Assembly: GCA_001443485.1 (NCBI GenBank)
Contig: LDXQ01000014.1
Coordinates: 1-42,018 of the forward strand
Source: Candidatus Sysuimicrobiota bacterium CSP1-3
GTDB taxonomy: Bacteria > Sysuimicrobiota > Sysuimicrobiia > Sysuimicrobiales > Humicultoraceae
Direction of reading: 5' to 3'
DNA: 42,018 nucleotides
Part shown: positions 987 to 11,435 of the stretch, piece after piece
Position numbering within the stretch: the stretch's first letter is position 1
Layout: each line of letters opens with the position of its first letter
The notes under the pieces: generated by a model
The model's input: the letters and a program-made list of their open reading frames with translations, nothing else
The model's database searches: none
What the model was told of the DNA's origin: nothing
Translations under genes and position numbers: made by a program

Positions 987-1415
987 ATGGAATTGACGAA
1001 GAAGGAAAAGATCGCCTGGCTGCGCACGGTGCCGCTCTTTAAAGAGGTGTCGCCGCGCTCGCTGGCGCTAATCGCGGACAAGGTCACGGTGATCGAGTAT
1101 CCCGCCGGCCGCTACATCGTGCGGCAGGGTCAGGTGGGCACCGGGTGCTACCTGATCATCAGGGGGAGGGTACGGGTCGAACGCAGCGGTGAGGCGTTGT
1201 CCCGGCTAGGGCCGGGCGACTTCTTCGGCGAACTCTCGGTGCTGGATCAGCTGCCCCGGATTGCCCACGTGGTCACCGAAGAGCCGACGGTCTGCCTGGG
1301 TCTGGCCTCGTGGGACTTCACGAAGCTGCTGGAGCAAAATCCCAAGATCACGCTGAGTATCCTCCGCGAGGTCGCCCGCCGCCTGCGCGCCGTCAGCACC
1401 CTCCCGCACCACTAG
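987..1415 (+). CDS. Standalone cyclic nucleotide-binding (CNB) domain protein
   Basis: 142 aa; GRYIVRQGQVGTGCYLIIRGRVRVE...LGPGDFFGELSVLDQLPRIAHV, a CNB fold with phosphate-binding cassette Glu and Arg retained; no HTH domain seen. Confidence 0.85.
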   Translation: MELTKKEKIAWLRTVPLFKEVSPRSLALIADKVTVIEYPAGRYIVRQGQVGTGCYLIIRGRVRVERSGEALSRLGPGDFFGELSVLDQLPRIAHVVTEEPTVCLGLASWDFTKLLEQNPKITLSILREVARRLRAVSTLPHH

Positions 1416-1424
1416 GCCACGACT

Positions 1425-1973
1425 CTACTCCACCGGGGACTGCTCGCTGACCTCCAGCAGCCGCGGCGCGATGCGGACGATCTCTGCGGCGAGACGGCGC
1501 AACCGCTCTCTGTTGTCGTCGCTCAGTCCCTGCTTGCACTCCGCCGAGGTCAGCGACAATTGCGACGGCAGGACCCACGCACCCATGGAGCGGGCGACCA
1601 GCCGCAGCGCGTTCAGCGTGTTGACCGCGCCCATGGCCCCGCCGACGACGCCGATCAGGGCCACAAGTTTCCCCTGCAGGTGATCCGACCAGAGGTAGTC
1701 CAGCGCGTTCTTCATCGCGCCGGAGAAGGAGGAGTGGAACTCCGGCGAGACCCAGACGTGCGCCTCCGCCCGCTGCGCCCGCGTCACCCACGCCAACACC
1801 TCGGCATGGTGCAGTTGCTCCACCCGGCCGTCGTGCAGCGGCAGGCCGAGTTCGCCGAGGTCTACCAGGTCCACCTCCGCGCCCGCCTCGCGGAGCGCCT
1901 CCGCGGCGTACTCGGCGGCCTTGCGCACGCTGGACGTGGGGTGCACGCTGCCGCTGAGGACGAGCCCGCGCAT
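1425..1973 (-). CDS. NADPH-dependent FMN reductase family protein
   Basis: MRGLVLSGSVHPTSSVRKAAEYAAEAL...VDLVDLGELGLPLHDG...VSPEFHSSFSGAMKNALDYLW; flavodoxin-like FMN reductase signature (SPE[YF]..S.PG.LKNALD-like). Start taken at internal ATG 1973. Confidence 0.85.
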   Translation of the reverse strand: MRGLVLSGSVHPTSSVRKAAEYAAEALREAGAEVDLVDLGELGLPLHDGRVEQLHHAEVLAWVTRAQRAEAHVWVSPEFHSSFSGAMKNALDYLWSDHLQGKLVALIGVVGGAMGAVNTLNALRLVARSMGAWVLPSQLSLTSAECKQGLSDDNRERLRRLAAEIVRIAPRLLEVSEQSPVE

Positions 1974-1978
1974 GGCCG

Positions 1979-3481
1979 TCACGCCTGCGGCGCCGGCGCG
2001 AGCACCAGTCCGGCCTCCGTCACCCGCCGCTGCAGCTCCTTGCGGATGTCCTCGCCGGCCGCCACCGACTGCGCCACGGCCGCTTTGAACGTCTCCGCGT
2101 CCAGCGCGATTAACGTGCACTCAGTCACGGCGCGCACGGTGGCGGTGCGCGCGGTGTCCTCCAGAATGGCGATCTCCCCGAAGTAGTTGCCAGGTGCCAG
2201 GCTCGCGACCTTGCGCTCCTGGCCGCCCTCTTCGGCCACCACAACCTCCGCCTCGCCCTTCGTCAGGATGTAGAAGCGCGTGGCGGCGTCGCCCTGGTGC
2301 ACGATCACCTGCCCGGCGGGGACCGCCTCCCGCGCGAACTTCGCCGCCAGGACCCGCGCCTGCTGCTCGCTGAACCCTTTGAAGGTCTCCTGGATGAACC
2401 CACCGCTGTCGCCCCAGATCAACTCGACCGGGTCCATCGGGCGCCGCGCCGGCCACCGCGCGTCCATCCAGCGGCGCAGGAACAACTGGATGAAGAGCAG
2501 GTTCCCGATAAAGATCGTCTCGATGATGTACTGGTCCCGCAGCGAGAGGTTCAAGGCCCCGAACTGCGCGTACCCGGCCTCGCCCGGCGTGAAGAGGACG
2601 AAGAGCATCGCCAGCGCCCAGAGGACGCCGTTCAGCCCGCCGTACACCATCCGTCCTCGCTCGCTGCGCGGCGCTACCTTCGGATCGGTGATGAAGGCGA
2701 AGGAAAAGAGCATGAACTCCGGCGAGAACAGCACGGCCAGCCAGTACAGGAGCCCCTCCCTGGCGCCCGCGCCTAGTGCGCCGGTCGCGATCTGCGACGT
2801 CACGAACGCGGCGGGGGCGAACGCCGCCAGGAAGGTGAAGGGAATCAGGGTCAGGCGAAAGGACCGCAGCACGTAGTACACGCCGATGGCCAGGTAGAGG
2901 ACCAGGAAGAGCTGCCCGCCCCAGGAGACGCCCCACGTCAGCGGCGTGGGATGGACGTGCCGCGGGAAGAGCACCAGCAGCGTGAAGATGGCCAGGGCGG
3001 AGGGGTTGAAGACCTGCTCGCCGCGCAATTTGATGATGTACTTCTGGCCGATGGCGATGAACGCCCCCAGCCAGAGAAAGCCGAACCCGTTCATGGAGAA
3101 CCAGTCGCCCCAGCGCGTGCCGTTGGTCTTGACGAACCAGGTCAGGGAGTTGGCCGCCTGCATGGCGCTGCTGGGAAACTGGATGACCTTTTGCGTCTCT
3201 GCAAAGAGGTAGATCTCGAAGATGGCCGCTACGAAGATCGTGGAGATGATCAGCGCCGGCGTCGTCTCGAAGCGCAGCCAGACCTGCCCCATGATCTGCA
3301 GCCCCCAGATGATCGCGGCGAAGTGCAGGCGGGGGTCCCGGATCGAGGGGAGGATCACCGGATAGGGCTCTCCCTTCCAGTAGAAGACCGGCACCAGGCG
3401 CGTGGCCCCGTCCGGCATCTTGAACGGAGCCCGGGCGCCGAAGCCGAAGCGCGTTCCGGCCGCCGCCATCTCAGCTGCCAC
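1979..3481 (-). CDS. RnfD/NqrB (NQR2_RnfD_RnfE)-like membrane protein fused to C-terminal cyclic nucleotide-binding domain
   Basis: Multiple TM helices with RnfD-like FNPSAL and FSFAFITDPKVAPRSERGRMVYGGLNGVL (cf. ATDP..TP..RGR), then a CNB domain AGQVIVHQGDAATRFYILTKGEAEVV...GNYFGEIAILEDTARTATVRA. Confidence 0.75.
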   Translation of the reverse strand: MAAEMAAAGTRFGFGARAPFKMPDGATRLVPVFYWKGEPYPVILPSIRDPRLHFAAIIWGLQIMGQVWLRFETTPALIISTIFVAAIFEIYLFAETQKVIQFPSSAMQAANSLTWFVKTNGTRWGDWFSMNGFGFLWLGAFIAIGQKYIIKLRGEQVFNPSALAIFTLLVLFPRHVHPTPLTWGVSWGGQLFLVLYLAIGVYYVLRSFRLTLIPFTFLAAFAPAAFVTSQIATGALGAGAREGLLYWLAVLFSPEFMLFSFAFITDPKVAPRSERGRMVYGGLNGVLWALAMLFVLFTPGEAGYAQFGALNLSLRDQYIIETIFIGNLLFIQLFLRRWMDARWPARRPMDPVELIWGDSGGFIQETFKGFSEQQARVLAAKFAREAVPAGQVIVHQGDAATRFYILTKGEAEVVVAEEGGQERKVASLAPGNYFGEIAILEDTARTATVRAVTECTLIALDAETFKAAVAQSVAAGEDIRKELQRRVTEAGLVLAPAPQA

Positions 3482-4298
3482 GGCTGACCTCCTCCATGCG
3501 CACCTTCATCACGCGCTCGAAATCCGCCCGGATCATCGGGTAGCGGTCCATGATCGTGCGGAAGTCCTCGCTGTCCAGGGCTACCAGCCGGCAGTTCGTC
3601 CGCGCCCGCACGGAGGCGATGCGGGACTGGCCGGTGAGGAGGGCCATCTCGCCGACAAACGCCCCCGGGCCCAGGATGGCGATGTGTCGTTCCCGGCCCT
3701 CTTCTTCCTGGTACACCTCCACCTCGCCGCTGACGACGATGAAGAAGGTCTCGCCGCGCGAGCCCTGGCGGAACAGCACCTCGCCCTCCTTCAACTCCCG
3801 GGGCGTCAATTGTGTGGCGATCTCCTGCGCCTGGCCCGGGGTCACGCCGCGGAACACCTGGTGTACCAGGTCCTCACGGAAGTTGACGGCGAAGAAGGTC
3901 CCCTGCTGCTTCCCCCCGCTCTCCACCGCGCGCAGGTCGTAGACGACGACGCGGTACCAGCGCACCGAGGGGACGTCCGGCATCGTCGTCTCCGGGAACT
4001 TCCGGCCGAAGACCTCGATGGCCCGCGTCCGCTCCCCCGGTGTGGTCAGCAGCACGGCGCGTCCCTGGAAGTGCAGGCTGCTGGCCTGCCGCCAGTCGGC
4101 GGTGTCGGCGTAGATCGCCCCCGCCACGTACGGATTCTCACTCAGGTTGTGCGCCGTCGTGCTGCGCTCATCCACGGCCAGATAGAGGTCCAGCCCCTCG
4201 CTCGCATACCAGAAGGCCGACGCGTGCGGCGTCCCCGCCTTGGTGGCCGTGGCCAGCGTACAGATGTGGTGGCGTTGCAGGTACTCATCGGGATTCAT
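3471..4298 (-). CDS. Pyridoxamine 5'-phosphate oxidase-like flavin domain fused to cyclic nucleotide-binding domain
   Basis: N-terminal YLQRHHICTLATATKAGTPHASAFWYASEGLDLYLAVDERSTTAHNLSENPYVAGAIY (PNPOx-like split-barrel), C-terminal EGEVLFRQGSRGETFFIVVSGEVEVYQEE...GPGAFVGEMALLTGQSRIASVRA (CNB). Confidence 0.8.
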   Translation of the reverse strand: MNPDEYLQRHHICTLATATKAGTPHASAFWYASEGLDLYLAVDERSTTAHNLSENPYVAGAIYADTADWRQASSLHFQGRAVLLTTPGERTRAIEVFGRKFPETTMPDVPSVRWYRVVVYDLRAVESGGKQQGTFFAVNFREDLVHQVFRGVTPGQAQEIATQLTPRELKEGEVLFRQGSRGETFFIVVSGEVEVYQEEEGRERHIAILGPGAFVGEMALLTGQSRIASVRARTNCRLVALDSEDFRTIMDRYPMIRADFERVMKVRMEEVSRGS

Positions 4299-4325
4299 CC
4301 CAGTGACCTCCGTCCGCCATGATCG

Positions 4326-5267
4326 TCACGCCTGAGTCGCCCCTGCACGGCCCAACGCCTCTTCCGTCTGGCGGAGATGCCAGGCGGCCCCCAGGTGGCT
4401 GAAGATCTCCCGCGCCCGCCGCCAGGATTCGACGGCCTGCGTCCGATTGCCCCCCGCCTGATGCGCCTCTCCGAACAGCAGGAGGGTCTGCCCCTGCTCG
4501 AAGGGCTGGTGCAGGGCGAGCGCCTCACCCAGCGCCAGCGCCTGGCGCGCGGCCTCCACCGCCTCATTCGCCCTGCCGCGCTGCAGAGCCAGCCGCGCCC
4601 GGGCGCGGCGCGCCCGGATGCGCGTGGTGACGTGGCCGATTTCAGCCGCGGTCGCCTCCGCCTCCTCCAACAGGGGCTCGGCCGCCGGGTCCTCCAGCGT
4701 CGCGTAGAACTCGGCCGCGATGCCGTTGGCCTGACAGCCGCAGATGATGCAGCGGAAGCGGTCGCGCGCCGCCAGCGCCCGGGCCATCGCGGCGCGGGCC
4801 GCAGTTTGCTCGCCGAGCATCAGCAGGCAGCGCCCCAGGTCGTGATTCAGCCAGATCGGGGCGTGGAAGGGCGGTCGCTCCAGGGCCTGTTCGAAGATGC
4901 GCTTCCCTTCCTCCAGAGCCCCGCGCCCCATGGCCGCGTTCCCTCGGAAGTAGGGAAGGGCGATGTGAAAGTATCCCTGAGTATATCCGCCCAGGGTCTC
5001 CAGCAGGCCGTGCGCGCGCTCCAAAAGGGCGCTCGCTTCCGCCCAGCGCCCTGTCAGGAAATACCCCCAGCCCAGCATCATACGGAGTCCGATCTCGTCA
5101 CGCGTCCACCCGAATTCGGCGGCCCGCGCCACCCCGTCTTCGATGAACCGGAACAGCTCCTCATCCACCATCCCGCGGGTCCAGATGTCGCTGGCGACGA
5201 TGTGCCGGGCGTCGGTGAGCAGCCGCTCTTCCCCCTTCGTGGCCACCTCGGCCACCCAGGACCGCAT
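4326..5267 (-). CDS. TPR-repeat protein, translationally coupled partner of the upstream cyclase-AAA protein
   Basis: Starts MRSWVAEVATKGEERLLTDARHIV at 5267; the start ATG overlaps the upstream TGA (TGATG). Repeating helical TPR pattern and a C-I-I-C-G-C motif. Confidence 0.75.
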   Translation of the reverse strand: MRSWVAEVATKGEERLLTDARHIVASDIWTRGMVDEELFRFIEDGVARAAEFGWTRDEIGLRMMLGWGYFLTGRWAEASALLERAHGLLETLGGYTQGYFHIALPYFRGNAAMGRGALEEGKRIFEQALERPPFHAPIWLNHDLGRCLLMLGEQTAARAAMARALAARDRFRCIICGCQANGIAAEFYATLEDPAAEPLLEEAEATAAEIGHVTTRIRARRARARLALQRGRANEAVEAARQALALGEALALHQPFEQGQTLLLFGEAHQAGGNRTQAVESWRRAREIFSHLGAAWHLRQTEEALGRAGATQA

Positions 5268-7633
5268 CAGGCGCCGACCTCCTCTCCCATCAGTGGAAGG
5301 ATGGCCGGATGGGCCAGGGTGCTGAGGGCGTGGGACCGATCGACCAGGGTCCCCCGGCGGTCCGCCACCTCCACCGCCTCCCGGGCGATCCGCAGCGCTT
5401 CCCGGTACTGCGACTCGCGAATCAACAGTTGTGCACGCTCGCTGAGGAGGTGACTCCACAGCGGGTGATCGCCGGTCAGCCACGACTCCGCCTGGGCGAG
5501 GAGCGGTCGAGCTTCGTCAATCCTGCTCTCCTTGATCCGGGCGCTGGCGGCACGGATCGCCGCCCGCGCGGCCCGCGCCGGATCCGCCGAGGGGTCCAGA
5601 TGGTTCAGCACCGCCTGCCAGACGTCGAACTCATCCGTCCAGCCGCGCTCTTGCATCCGCGGGTACAGGTCTCCCAGAAGCTCACAGGCCTCGACGAGGA
5701 TCTCGCTCCGCCCCAACTCCCGCGCCAGGACGCGTGTGCGTTCGAGGAGTTCCACGGCCTCCCGCGTGGCATACTGCTGTGCCGCTCTCCGCCCCGCCTG
5801 CAGGAGGTACGGAAGCGCGCGCGCCGGATCCCCGGCCCGGTCGAGATGGGTGCCGATGGTCTTGGCCAGTTCATCGGGGCGCTCCGGATGCTGCCGCTCC
5901 AACGCCTCGGCTACCTGCCAATGGAGCGCCGCCTGGTGCTTGTGGAGGAGGCTGGCGTAGGCCACCTCGCGCAGCAGCGGATGGACGAAGACATACTCGG
6001 GATCGAGGGCGAAGGGGTCCCGGCGGCGGAGCAAGTCGGCATCCTCCAGTTGATGGAGCACGCGCAGCACGTCGATGTCTGGACTGACCGCACCGAGTAA
6101 CGACTGCGAAAATGACACGCCGACGACCGCGGCTCGTTGCACGAGAGTCCGCTGGTCGGGCGCGAGCCGGTCCAGACGGGCCAGCAGCGCTCCCTGCACC
6201 GTGTCCGGCAGCACCTGGTCCACCGGCCCCGTGGTGCGCCAGCGTCCGCGGTCGTCGCGGATCAGGACACCCATGCTGCGCAGCGTGGCCACGATCTCGC
6301 TAAGGTAGAATGGATTGCCCCCGGCCTTACCGATCAGCGCCCGTTCCACGTCTGCCGGCAGACGCTCCTCCAGCATGGCCGCCAGGAGGACCCGCGCGTC
6401 CTCTTCGCCCAGCGGCTCCAACTGCATCGTCGTGACCGCGGTGCGCTTCCCCCAGGCCAGCGGCTCCTCCCCCGCGCGCAGGTTGCCGACTAACAGGAGC
6501 GGCGCATCGGTGAGGCGTTCCATCATGAAGGGCAGCAGTTCGCGCGTCCCGGCGTCGGCCCACTGCAGATCCTCGATCCACACGACGGTCGGCCGGGTGA
6601 TCAGGCGGCGCACCGTCTCCGCCGCGACCAGCAGCGCCGTCTCGTGCGTCACCTCGTCGCCGGGTGGGACCTCGGCGAGGTTGAAGAGACGGCTCACCAC
6701 CATCGCCGCCCGCGCGGCGCGCTCGCCCAGCGGGATGCGGGCCTCCACCTCCGCGACCGTGGTCGGACCGGCCAGCCCCGCCAACTGCCGGAAGAGATCG
6801 GCCAGCGGTCCGAGGCTCTCCCCACCGTACGGCGGACAGGCCGTCTGCAGGAAAAGGACATCCTCCGGGAGGCCTCTCGTGAACTCCTCCACCAGGCGCG
6901 TCTTCCCGACTCCCGGGTCCCCGCTGAGGACCACCACCTGCGCCCGGCCGCGGCCGCGGGCGAGGAGATCTCGCAGTTGCTCGAGATCCTGCTCGCGGTC
7001 GACGAACGGTGGCCGATACATCGGCTCGGCCCGCTCCCGCTCGCCGATCACCTCGTAGACCGCAATCGGCTCGGCCTTACCTTTGACGACGATAGGCCCC
7101 CACGCCTTGCTGAGATACGTCCCCCGAATCTGGCGGGCCACCGCCTCCGACACCAAAATCCCGCCTTCCGGCGCGGCGTGCTGCAGCCGGGACGCCAGGT
7201 TGACGACATCGCCCATCACCGTGGGCCGGGCCTGCCCCGGCGGACCGACCACGCCCCAGACGACCTGGCCGCTGTGGATGCCGATGCGCAGCCGCGGGGC
7301 CTGGCCGAAGGCGCGGTGCAGCATCTCCTGCCGCGCCTGCATCGCCCGCTGCATGCCGACGGCGGCACGCACCGCCCGCAGGGCGTCGTCCTCATGGGCC
7401 ACGGGCGCGCCGAAGAGGGCCATCAGTTCGTCGCCCACGACCTTGTCCACGTGGCCCCCCACCGCTTCGACCTCGGCACCGAGGGCGGCGAAGACCTCGT
7501 TCATCACGTCGGTGACCACTTCCGGGTCGATCTTCTCGGTCAGCGCGGTGAAACCGGCCATGTCGGCAAAGAGCACGGCGACGACCCGCCGCTCGCTCGT
7601 CACGCCGTGCTCCCCGACGCCCACCGCCGCCAC
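5267..7633 (-). CDS. Class III adenylate/guanylate cyclase - AAA ATPase - TPR protein
   Basis: RRVVAVLFADMAGFTALTEKIDPE (metal Asp), HVDKVVGDELMALFG (second Asp; Lys at the adenine-specifying position), PTVMGDVVNLASRL (Asn/Arg); then VVLSGDPGVGKTRLVEEF Walker A and TVVWIEDLQWAD Walker B. GTG start. Confidence 0.9.
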   Translation of the reverse strand: MAAVGVGEHGVTSERRVVAVLFADMAGFTALTEKIDPEVVTDVMNEVFAALGAEVEAVGGHVDKVVGDELMALFGAPVAHEDDALRAVRAAVGMQRAMQARQEMLHRAFGQAPRLRIGIHSGQVVWGVVGPPGQARPTVMGDVVNLASRLQHAAPEGGILVSEAVARQIRGTYLSKAWGPIVVKGKAEPIAVYEVIGERERAEPMYRPPFVDREQDLEQLRDLLARGRGRAQVVVLSGDPGVGKTRLVEEFTRGLPEDVLFLQTACPPYGGESLGPLADLFRQLAGLAGPTTVAEVEARIPLGERAARAAMVVSRLFNLAEVPPGDEVTHETALLVAAETVRRLITRPTVVWIEDLQWADAGTRELLPFMMERLTDAPLLLVGNLRAGEEPLAWGKRTAVTTMQLEPLGEEDARVLLAAMLEERLPADVERALIGKAGGNPFYLSEIVATLRSMGVLIRDDRGRWRTTGPVDQVLPDTVQGALLARLDRLAPDQRTLVQRAAVVGVSFSQSLLGAVSPDIDVLRVLHQLEDADLLRRRDPFALDPEYVFVHPLLREVAYASLLHKHQAALHWQVAEALERQHPERPDELAKTIGTHLDRAGDPARALPYLLQAGRRAAQQYATREAVELLERTRVLARELGRSEILVEACELLGDLYPRMQERGWTDEFDVWQAVLNHLDPSADPARAARAAIRAASARIKESRIDEARPLLAQAESWLTGDHPLWSHLLSERAQLLIRESQYREALRIAREAVEVADRRGTLVDRSHALSTLAHPAILPLMGEEVGA

Positions 7634-8311
7634 CTACCGGAAGAGCAGCCCAAGGACCGCGGAGAAGGTCAGGCCGGACACGGTCTCCACCCACCGCCGC
7701 GGCTGCCGGTGGTTGACGCCCAACTGCACGACCGAGGAGACCGCACCCAGCCACCACCACCAGGGGACCGCAAAGAGCACGACGGTCAGCGTGAGCATGC
7801 GCTCGGCCATACCGGCCACCCGCAGGCGGGTCAGCAGCAGTTCCGCCGGGTTGAGCCGGGTCTCAAAGGCCAGGGCGATCTGATAGAGGAGGATCGCCCC
7901 GGCAAACGCCACCGCGATGTAGGGCACAGCGTAACGGAGGATCGCCGTCAGCGTCACCGATCTGTAGAAGACTTCGCCGTCCAGCCGCAGTCCCGACAGC
8001 AGCACCGCCCCGGCCAGGATCGCCATGTGCACCGCCTGGTCGAAGAGGAAGGCGACGAGCGACCAGGGGCCGCGCTCCGGCCCGTGCCCTACTTTCATCG
8101 CGTCCACCCAGTAGTGGACCACGGTGACCACCGGGATGATCATCCACCAGCGCGGTAGAATCGCCGCGGCGAGCACGGCCGTCACCAGGGCGTGGATGCC
8201 CGCATGGATGGCCAGGCCGACGCGCCGGCGCTTCAACTGCACCAGTTCGTACGGCTGCAGGATGAAGTCCGCGATAAGGTGTGCCAGCAACAGGTAGAGC
8301 CAGGGAGACAG
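7634..8311 (-). CDS. DUF3307 family integral membrane protein
   Basis: LLLAHLIADFILQPYELVQLKRRRVGLAIHAGIHALVTAV and VVHYWVDAMKV typical of DUF3307. Start uncertain: TTG at 8290 in the track; a GAGGTGAG ribosome-binding site upstream better suits a CTG at 8311. Confidence 0.7.
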   Translation of the reverse strand: MSPWLYLLLAHLIADFILQPYELVQLKRRRVGLAIHAGIHALVTAVLAAAILPRWWMIIPVVTVVHYWVDAMKVGHGPERGPWSLVAFLFDQAVHMAILAGAVLLSGLRLDGEVFYRSVTLTAILRYAVPYIAVAFAGAILLYQIALAFETRLNPAELLLTRLRVAGMAERMLTLTVVLFAVPWWWWLGAVSSVVQLGVNHRQPRRWVETVSGLTFSAVLGLLFR

Positions 8312-8402: not shown

Positions 8403-8759
8403 TCACCGCCGCAGGTAGGCGTCGGTCTTGTCGATCCAGTCCTGCCGGGGCGGGCTGAAGAAGTCCATCTCCACGGTGTCCTCGAGAAACTCTGCGCCGT
8501 GCGGCACGTTTCCGGGAATGAGTAGCACCTCGCCCGGCCGCAGCAGCAGTTCGCCGTCCGGCAGCGTGAAGCGCATCAGCCCGGAGATGCAGTGGGTCAG
8601 TTGCTCGTGCTCGTGCTGGTGGACGGGGACCACGGCCCCCCGTTTGAACTCCAGGTAGGCGGCCATGAGGCGCTGCCCCCACAGCAGGCGCCGGGTGATC
8701 TGCGGGGTCACCTGCTCAGACTCAAGGTCGAGCAGACGTCGGTGAACGACGGATCCCAT
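8403..8759 (-). CDS. Cupin-domain protein
   Basis: VVPVHQHEHEQLTHCISGLMRFTLPDGELLLRPGEVLLIPGNVPHGAEFLEDT: both cupin motifs. ATG at 8759. Confidence 0.85.
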   Translation of the reverse strand: MGSVVHRRLLDLESEQVTPQITRRLLWGQRLMAAYLEFKRGAVVPVHQHEHEQLTHCISGLMRFTLPDGELLLRPGEVLLIPGNVPHGAEFLEDTVEMDFFSPPRQDWIDKTDAYLRR

Positions 8760-8886
8760 GCCTGACCTCCTTGGCGATCTGGTTCTGGGAAGTCCCCGCT
8801 CAATTTCGCGCCCGCCGGGTCCGGCCCTGCCGTCGCCGCTACCACTTCCGGCCGGACTGGACCGATAATCTTCTCGGGAGATCCAG

Positions 8887-9960
8887 ATGCGCAGAGTGGA
8901 ACCGCGCCCCGCACCGTCGCTGGCCAACATCATCGACCGGCTCACCGTCCCCGGCGAGCTCTACCGTCCGCTGCGGGACGGCAAGCTGGAGTGCTACGCC
9001 TGCGGCCACAGGTGCGTGATCTTCCCGGAGAAGCGGGGGATCTGCAAGGTCCGCGTCAATGAGCGGGGCGCGCTGCGCGTGCCCTGGGGGTACGTGGCCG
9101 CGCTACAGTGCGACCCCACAGAGAAGAAGCCATTCACCCACGTGCTCCCGGGCTCGCACACGCTGACGTTCGGCATGCTCGGATGCGACTATGCCTGTGT
9201 TTTTTGCCACAATTGGCTGACCTCGCAGGCCCTGCGTGACCCGGCCGCGGGCGTTCAACCCACCGAGGTCACACCGCGAACGCTCATCGACCTGGCTCGA
9301 CGCCACGGCGCGGCGCTGGTCGGCTCTTCCTACAATGAGCCCCTCATCACCAGCGAGTGGGCCGTCGCGGTCTTCCAAGAGGCGAAGGCCGCGGGTCTGC
9401 GCACCTGCTATGTGAGCAACGGCAACGCTACTCCCGAAGTCCTGGATTATCTGCGGCCGTGGACGGACTGCTACAAAGTCGATTTGAAGGCGATGACCCA
9501 GAGGAACTACCGCGCGCTCGGCGGGGTCCTGCAGCAGGTGCTCGAGACGATCCGCATGGTGTACAAGCGCGGCTTCTGGCTGGAGGTGGTCACCCTCGTC
9601 ATCCCCGGCTGGAACGACTCCGCCGACGAACTGCGGGCCGCGGCCGAGTTCATCGCCTCGGTCTCACCCTTCATCCCCTGGCACGTGTCCGCGTTCCACA
9701 AGGACTACCACATGACCGATCCGGACGACACGGGGCCGGAGACATTGCGGCGCGCGGCCCGCATCGGCGAGGCCGCGGGGCTCAAGTACGTCTACGCGGG
9801 GAACCTGCCCGGACGCGTGGGGCGGTACGAGCACACCTGGTGCCACCACTGTGGGGCCCTGCTGGTCGAACGGTCCGGCTACTTCATCCTGCAGAACCGC
9901 CTCGCGCCGGGCGGCCGCTGCCCCGAGTGCGGCACGGCGATCCCGGGGATCTGGCAGTGA
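8887..9960 (+). CDS. amrS: AmmeMemoRadiSam-type radical SAM enzyme (AmrS family)
   Basis: KLECYACGHRCVIFPEKRGICKVR, TFGMLGCDYACVFCHNW (CxxxCxxC), SYNEPLIT, VSNGNATPEVLDYL, C-terminal CHHCGALLVERSGYFILQN. Confidence 0.85.
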   Translation: MRRVEPRPAPSLANIIDRLTVPGELYRPLRDGKLECYACGHRCVIFPEKRGICKVRVNERGALRVPWGYVAALQCDPTEKKPFTHVLPGSHTLTFGMLGCDYACVFCHNWLTSQALRDPAAGVQPTEVTPRTLIDLARRHGAALVGSSYNEPLITSEWAVAVFQEAKAAGLRTCYVSNGNATPEVLDYLRPWTDCYKVDLKAMTQRNYRALGGVLQQVLETIRMVYKRGFWLEVVTLVIPGWNDSADELRAAAEFIASVSPFIPWHVSAFHKDYHMTDPDDTGPETLRRAARIGEAAGLKYVYAGNLPGRVGRYEHTWCHHCGALLVERSGYFILQNRLAPGGRCPECGTAIPGIWQ

Positions 9961-9961
9961 G

Positions 9962-11311
9962 CTAGAGCCCGGCGAAACGCCGCAGGAGCCCCCCGACCGC
10001 GCTCCCCAGCACGACGGGGACAATCCCCAGACGGAATCTCCACAGCGCCACGAACGCGGCAACGGCCAGCGCGAGGGCGGGGAGATCAAGTGTGGCGAGG
10101 CGCGGCACGGGCACGGTCATCGCCAGCACGCTCGTCTCCGTGACGGTGCGGAACAGCGTGTGCAGTCCAAACCACACCGCCAGATTGAGGATGACGCCGA
10201 CCACGGCTGCGGTGATCGCCGCGAGCGCGACGGTGAGCACGACGTGGCCGCGCACGTGCTCGATGTAGGGAGCGCCCAGGAAGATAAAGAGGAAGGACGG
10301 CGCAAACGTGGCCCACACCGTGACCAGCGCGCCCAGCGTCCCGGCCGCGACGGGATCCAGACCGCCGGGGTGGCGAAACGCTCCCAAGAAGCCGACGAAC
10401 TGAGTCACCATAATCAGCGGCCCCGGCGTCGTCTCCGCAAGGCCGAGGCCGTCGAGCATCTCCCCCGGGGCGAGCCACCCATACTGCTGCACCGCCGCCT
10501 GGGCGATGTAGACGAGCACCGCGTACGCGCCACCGAACGTGACCAGGGCCGCCTTGCTGAAGAAGATGGCCTCCCGCGTTAAGACGTCGGTTGTGCCCCG
10601 CCATGCGGCCACCACGGCCAGCGGTCCCCACCACGCGGCCAGGCCCACGACCAGGGCCAGCAGCGCCCGGCGGAGCGTAGGGCGGGTGTGCTCCGGGGCC
10701 GGCAGATCATCCCGGATCACCGGAGTGTCCCTCACGGAGAACACGGCTTCCAGCGGCGCCGGGGCGAACAGCGTCGGCGCCCAGCGCGCGCCGACCAGAC
10801 CTGTCAGTCCCGCGCCGATCACGATCGCGGGGAAGGGGACCTTGAAGGCAAAGAGGGCCCCGAAGGCCGCGGCGGCAATCGCGACCATCGCCGGCGTGCG
10901 CAGTGCCCGCACGCCGATGCGGATGACCGCGGCGGCGACGATGGCGATGACGCCCGCGCGCAGCCCGGAGAAGATCGCGGCCACCCAGAAGAGCTTCCCG
11001 TGCACGGCGTAGAGCCACGACAGTCCCAGCATGAAGAAGAAGGCCGGCAGGACGAACAGCACGCCCGCGGCCAGCCCGCCCGCCGTGCGGTGCAGCAGCC
11101 AGCCGATGTACGTGGCGAGTTGCGTCGCCTCGGGCCCGGGGAGGAGCATACAGTAGCTCAGCGCGTGGAGGAAGCGCTCGTTGCTGATCCAGCGGCGCCG
11201 CTCCACCAGCTCGTGGTGCATGATGGCGATCTGTCCGGTGGGCCCGCCGAAATTGATGAAGCCGAGCCGCAGCCAGAAGCGAAAGGCCTCCCAGAATCCC
11301 ACCGGCGGCAT
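9962..11311 (-). CDS. chrA: Chromate efflux transporter, ChrA (CHR) family
   Basis: FRFWLRLGFINFGGPTGQIAIMHHELVERRRWISNERFLHALSYCMLLPGPEATQLATYIGW, second half FSKAALVTFGGAYAVLVYIAQAAV...GLAETTPGPLIMVTQFVGF: two CHR repeats. Start ATG 11311. Confidence 0.9.
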   Translation of the reverse strand: MPPVGFWEAFRFWLRLGFINFGGPTGQIAIMHHELVERRRWISNERFLHALSYCMLLPGPEATQLATYIGWLLHRTAGGLAAGVLFVLPAFFFMLGLSWLYAVHGKLFWVAAIFSGLRAGVIAIVAAAVIRIGVRALRTPAMVAIAAAAFGALFAFKVPFPAIVIGAGLTGLVGARWAPTLFAPAPLEAVFSVRDTPVIRDDLPAPEHTRPTLRRALLALVVGLAAWWGPLAVVAAWRGTTDVLTREAIFFSKAALVTFGGAYAVLVYIAQAAVQQYGWLAPGEMLDGLGLAETTPGPLIMVTQFVGFLGAFRHPGGLDPVAAGTLGALVTVWATFAPSFLFIFLGAPYIEHVRGHVVLTVALAAITAAVVGVILNLAVWFGLHTLFRTVTETSVLAMTVPVPRLATLDLPALALAVAAFVALWRFRLGIVPVVLGSAVGGLLRRFAGL

Positions 11312-11435
11312 GGGGTGGATAGTTCTCCCCGGCAGGCGTGCAGCCCCCCGTACGGCGGCCCGCGGAGGATATCGCCGTGCAAGCGCGAACTTATGATAAG
11401 TAACGCACCGCATCCTAGAAGGGGGATGATCGCAG

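Follow-up and report, generated by a model that had tools for sequence, protein, structure and literature searches.

Can a bacterial adenylate cyclase act directly, through receptor domains fused to flavin-type and membrane proteins, on enzymes encoded beside it? The question is raised by a cluster of genes on one strand of a 42-kb contig (C14), which as a whole is the window analyzed here and belongs to the genome bin G000 (2.54 Mb, 154 contigs, 89% complete; hereafter the window genome). A sequence-only reading had described the cluster as an operon that makes its own second messenger and may control redox chemistry rather than transcription. We compared the window with 61 relatives falling within one order, the next kin used sharing only the same domain, and the wider profile and homologue searches covered 384 genomes. 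G001 denotes a genus mate of the window genome, and G006 a genome of a different genus in the same family.

The gene cluster in the window

The open reading frames described earlier were all found again at the same coordinates and on the same strand. The earlier observation was confirmed, with corrections, and its interpretation was partly supported. The features are the following:

987..1415, + strand: solo CNB protein of 142 aa at the convergent end of the island (Pfam cNMP_binding, E 9e-20)
1425..1973, − strand (ATG at 1973): NADPH-dependent FMN reductase of 182 aa, flavodoxin-like (Pfam FMN_red, 9e-36)
1979..3481, − strand: mini-RnfD-like membrane domain (about residues 50-350) with a C-terminal CNB domain (367-480; cNMP_binding, 2e-24)
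3471..4298, − strand: PNPOx split-barrel domain (5-119; PNPOx_N, 2e-14) with a C-terminal CNB domain (167-253; cNMP_binding, 3e-28)
4326..5267, − strand: C-terminal TPR half of the cyclase gene, a separate open reading frame here but joined to the cyclase in a single frame in G003, G005, G006, and G015
5267..5289, − strand: frame break splitting the cyclase gene, containing AGGAGGT and TGATG (DNA alignment with G006)
5267..7633, − strand: class III (IIIb-like) adenylate cyclase domain (17-189; Guanylate_cyc, 1e-24) and STAND/AAA_16 ATPase (210-382; AAA_16, 1e-23)
7634..8311, − strand (TTG at 8311): DUF3307 membrane protein (Pfam DUF3307, 3e-16)
8403..8864, − strand: cupin with an uncertain true start, which probably belongs to the island as an upstream gene (Cupin_2, 2.5e-10)

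The junctions were confirmed as read earlier, with an 11-bp overlap at 3471-3481, gaps of 27 bp at 4299-4325 and 5 bp at 1974-1978, and a TGATG at 5265-5269. The DUF3307 and cyclase genes were also seen to adjoin at 7633/7634, but whether they do so depends on which start codon is assigned to the cyclase. The solo CNB gene indeed converges on the end of the cluster from the + strand, and Pfam confirmed a CNB domain in both the PNPOx and the RnfD-like open reading frame, in agreement with the proposed fusion of receptors to flavin-type domains.

Conserved co-occurrence, which had been proposed as a gene-neighbourhood check, was found in a second genus: on contig C198 of G006, the genes for FMN reductase, RnfD-CNB, PNPOx-CNB, cyclase-TPR, DUF3307, cupin, and chromate transporter follow each other in the order of the window. 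Identity between the two genomes was 88% for the FMN reductase (over 138 aa), 85% for RnfD-CNB, 79% for PNPOx-CNB, 67% for the cyclase part, 62% for the TPR part, 63% for DUF3307, 62% for the cupin, and 76% for the chromate transporter. The dN/dS values across the cluster genes, from which the CNB part of RnfD-CNB was left out as it had been read out of frame, ranged from 0.13 to 0.36 and indicate purifying selection. As the same order recurs in another genus and the genes are under purifying selection, the cluster is not a chance arrangement; with a common strand, short gaps, and conserved order it has the sequence characteristics of an operon. In the window, an AmmeMemoRadiSam radical SAM gene on the + strand lies between the cupin and the chromate transporter (8887-9960, 9962-11413), while in G006 the cupin and the transporter directly adjoin each other and the radical SAM gene is missing between them.

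The RnfD-like domain was detected in two of the 61 relatives, the window genome and G006, and the profile search of 384 genomes yielded weak relatives only elsewhere. Among the matches listed from the 384 genomes, the full-length PNPOx-CNB fusion occurred in the same two. A contig scan with two narrow peptide patterns, which may miss distant members, returned the G006 contig alone. The queried cluster proteins had no relatives in the viral collection and no full-length relatives on plasmids, and one query (A4), run without a positive control against 399 genomes of another phylum, gave nothing at 1e-25. Between the window and G006, dS was about 0.6 for the three effectors, against 0.9-1.3 for the other cluster genes; because of this lower value, the two genera could have exchanged the effector genes at a later time.

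The cyclase gene and its likely messenger

The sequence-only reading had listed a TPR protein coupled to the cyclase as a separate product. The two open reading frames are instead halves of one gene, which is a single open reading frame in all four orthologues (G003, G005, G006, and G015). In the DNA alignment with G006, the window lacks one base at about position 5288 (indel placement uncertain by ~10 bases), followed by TGATG, and AGGAGGT stands about 9 bases before the second ATG at the junction. The split may be real, a recent mutation, or an assembly error. Set against the intact frame of the four orthologues, it could also mean that the locus is decaying, the cyclase being a frameshifted pseudogene in a cluster that has lost its role in this strain. 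We regard this as very improbable: both halves are otherwise open and constrained between the genera (dN/dS 0.24 and 0.36), the good Shine-Dalgarno sequence together with TGATG makes coupled translation of both halves conceivable, and draft bins can contain assembly errors.

The catalytic residues noted earlier are intact in the cyclase domain, namely the metal-binding Asp residues D24 and D68, K64, and the transition-state residues N145 and R149; T138 occupies the second base-specifying site. The closest solved chain is CyaB of P. aeruginosa (3r5g), a class IIIb enzyme with which the window cyclase has the catalytic Asp/Lys/Asp/Thr/Asn/Arg in common. Thr138 stands where class IIIa enzymes have Asp, which we take to place the domain in class IIIb. 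Judged by its sequence, the likely product of the enzyme is cAMP. The layout of cyclase, ATPase, and TPR also occurs in the soluble adenylyl cyclase ADCY10; compared with CyaB and ADCY10-type enzymes, the window protein differs by its one cyclase domain, its DUF3307 and flavoenzyme neighbours, and its split frame.

The idea of an operon with a private messenger could not be upheld. With 16 cyclase-family matches, several of which have lost residues, and 10 CNB domains in the bin, the messenger is not private and the circuit not closed, and the number of cyclase matches makes the signal specificity of the locus less certain. Four class III cyclase domain matches lie on one strand within 10 kb elsewhere in the bin (G000:C31:1260-11247, L094). 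At another locus (L027, G000:C118), a CNB gene comes after a cyclase-AAA-TPR gene of 1141 aa in which His replaces the catalytic Asn.

The island in other genomes and its CNB domains

Orthologues of the DUF3307 protein (50-63%) were found in G003, G005, G006, and G007; in the first three the gene lies upstream of the cyclase, while G007 has DUF3307 without cyclase. Downstream in G003, G005, and G007, a CNB gene overlaps or abuts an FAD/NAD(P)H oxidoreductase gene (Pyr_redox_3 in G003 and G005), and a convergent solo CNB gene follows. This oxidoreductase occurred in 13 of the 384 genomes, all within this phylum (E 1e-70 or better). The CNB gene precedes it in every case, and the convergent solo CNB gene follows it in 11, the exceptions being G015 and the window genome. 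In the latter, the CNB-oxidoreductase pair is located on contig C16 without a solo CNB gene, and the solo CNB gene ends the window cluster; orthologues of this gene (61-67%) hold the same position in 11 other genomes. G004 carries a cupin orthologue (65%) upstream of its CNB-oxidoreductase pair. In G003, a 396-aa beta-propeller-like gene with a weak PQQ_ABC_repeats match lies between cyclase and CNB-oxidoreductase (L122:3810-5000), and contig C7 of the window genome carries a further solo CNB gene with a second DUF3307 gene about 30 bp downstream in the same orientation (L126:3880-5055).

CNB and flavoenzyme genes are therefore repeatedly found side by side, and this supports the idea that a cyclic nucleotide controls the flavoenzymes directly. 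As the island neighbours are shared and, in the window genome and one other genus, the cassette takes the place of the CNB-oxidoreductase pair, the window cluster is best read as a form of the island in which the flavoenzyme unit would have been exchanged for PNPOx-CNB, RnfD-CNB, and FMN reductase. Such a swap of effectors inside one conserved neighbourhood would provide a separate line of evidence for a connection between receptor and flavoenzyme.

All three CNB domains of the window scored above the Pfam cut-off and keep the Glu and Arg of the phosphate-binding cassette, as the sequence-only reading had pointed out, in the spacing GE-x8-R-x-A; of the three, the RnfD CNB alone fits the PROSITE patterns PS00888/PS00889 in full. 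The cassette region of PNPOx-CNB is 96% identical between the window and G006. Both fused CNBs match PKA regulatory subunits, PKG, and SthK; the one of PNPOx-CNB has HCN channels among its matches as well and aligns with SthK and HCN through the C-terminal helix. In a CNB tree, from which row G000C118 was omitted as read out of frame, the fused CNBs clustered together and apart from the solo and the oxidoreductase-side CNBs, and this grouping suggests that they probably arrived together with their cassette. Judged by eye, CNB domains are also joined in frame to an M50-protease-like membrane domain (G000:C152, L003) and to an SLC13-like transporter (G000:C92, L098); such fusions of CNB domains and membrane proteins may be common in this genome.

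In all 13 genomes, the oxidoreductase-side CNB (L127-L139) has Pro for the cassette Arg (GEPP or similar) and may therefore not bind a cyclic nucleotide, while the solo CNBs retain this Arg (GE-x8-R) among the orthologues listed. The CNB domains of the island might then be structural or dimerisation modules or bind other ligands, the cyclase acting globally via Crp-type regulators and the neighbourhood reflecting nothing but shared expression. The many cyclases of the bin, and a CNB protein encoded elsewhere in it whose C-terminal extension resembles Crp, point the same way as the lost Arg. We nevertheless consider this account unlikely, as both the window fusions and the solo CNBs keep Glu and Arg, and the PNPOx-CNB cassette region has hardly changed between the genera.

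The flavin-type domains and a possible mechanism

The PNPOx domain scored 54.3 bits against a Pfam cut-off of 28.1; its nearest solved relative, Rv2991, was a weak match, and the F420 subfamilies stayed below cut-off. The FMN reductase reached 123 bits against 24 for FMN_red and is closest, among solved structures, to the azoreductase YhdA (PDB 3gfq, E 2e-25). AlphaFold2 models of PNPOx-CNB (pLDDT 60) and RnfD-CNB (pLDDT 40), each built on a two-row alignment, were too poor for use.

The description of the membrane domain as RnfD/NqrB-like held in part. Profile homology to a stand-alone mini-RnfD from outside the phylum was clear (hhalign probability 99, E 2e-18, 213 columns) and weaker to E. 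coli RsxD (E 2e-5), but the domain remained below the cut-offs of PF03116 (NQR2_RnfD_RnfE; 23.4 vs 27.7 bits) and TIGR01946 (22 vs 207). Family members have ten transmembrane helices and bound riboflavin; the hydropathy profile of the window domain shows six strong peaks. E. coli RsxD carries the flavinylated Thr and SQATPL in a loop of some 60 residues that had no counterpart in the alignment, and a search for ApbE (PF02424), whose control was positive in 7/14, found no match in the 89% complete bin. Because of the missing loop, the sub-cut-off Pfam score, and the lack of an ApbE match, the electron transfer proposed earlier for this protein is not supported. Compared with RnfD/NqrB subunits and NQR/RNF-like flavinylated systems (PMC8238504, PMC12174285), the window protein shows distant homology of the membrane domain, with conserved NP, TDP, and GR motifs, but has neither the covalent-FMN loop nor ApbE nor adjoining Rnf partners, and its CNB domain stands where those systems have an NAD-binding domain. 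In G240, an RnfD-like domain is fused to a ferredoxin-reductase-like domain with an ApbE-like gene alongside (L025:61-2318, judged by eye).

The missing loop and ApbE would also agree with RnfD-CNB being a cyclic-nucleotide-gated channel or permease for solutes or ions instead of an electron carrier, flavin chemistry being limited to PNPOx and the FMN reductase. RnfD/NqrB are structurally related to ammonium/urea transporters (PMC12174285), and the same bin joins a CNB to a transporter-like protein by the fusion mentioned above. Like CNG, HCN, and SthK channels, RnfD-CNB consists of a membrane domain followed by a C-terminal CNB, but its membrane domain is a mini-RnfD rather than a pore domain like theirs. 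Close to the cytoplasmic side, RnfD further contains a riboflavin that is not covalently bound (PMC12174285), and the enzymes encoded together with RnfD-CNB are of flavin type; we regard a gated channel or permease as rather unlikely.

We give an about even chance to the locus being a cyclic-nucleotide signalling island built around flavoenzymes, in which cAMP would switch the fused enzymes allosterically. The AAA/TPR part of a cytosolic class IIIb cyclase would sense an input, and the cAMP produced would bind the CNB domains at the C-termini of the PNPOx-type flavoprotein and of the mini-RnfD protein and thereby change the activity of both. The FMN reductase could feed reduced flavin or electrons into the same reaction, and the convergent solo CNB protein may be a further receptor or partner. 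It counts against this explanation that the genus mate G001 lacks the cassette of PNPOx-CNB, RnfD-CNB, and FMN reductase, which is known in two genomes. More tentatively, and with the balance somewhat against it, the phylum might possess a dedicated circuit with a fixed DUF3307-cyclase chassis and solo receptor and an exchanged flavoenzyme effector, including the first cyclic-nucleotide-gated mini-RnfD module.

A precedent for direct control of an enzyme by a CNB domain is mycobacterial Pat (Rv0998 / MSMEG_5458), in which the CNB is likewise fused to the enzyme and cAMP acts allosterically, not via transcription (PMC8556138); its effector, however, is a GNAT acetyltransferase without an island of cyclase and flavoenzymes. 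A CNB-bearing bacterial shell protein shares with the window fusions a CNB on a non-transcriptional protein, and differs in being a shell protein and in its gene neighbours. In line with the earlier statement that no named system has this composition, a search of open-licence papers turned up neither a CNB-RnfD nor a CNB-PNPOx fusion, nor the whole gene combination or the effector exchange. The parts belong to known families, and direct cyclic-nucleotide control of bacterial enzymes is already known as a kind. As work on bacterial cAMP has mostly dealt with transcription, the island offers, in an uncultured phylum, an example open to experiment in which a second messenger may act directly on redox or membrane enzymes, and DUF3307, a family without known function, gains a recurring genomic context.
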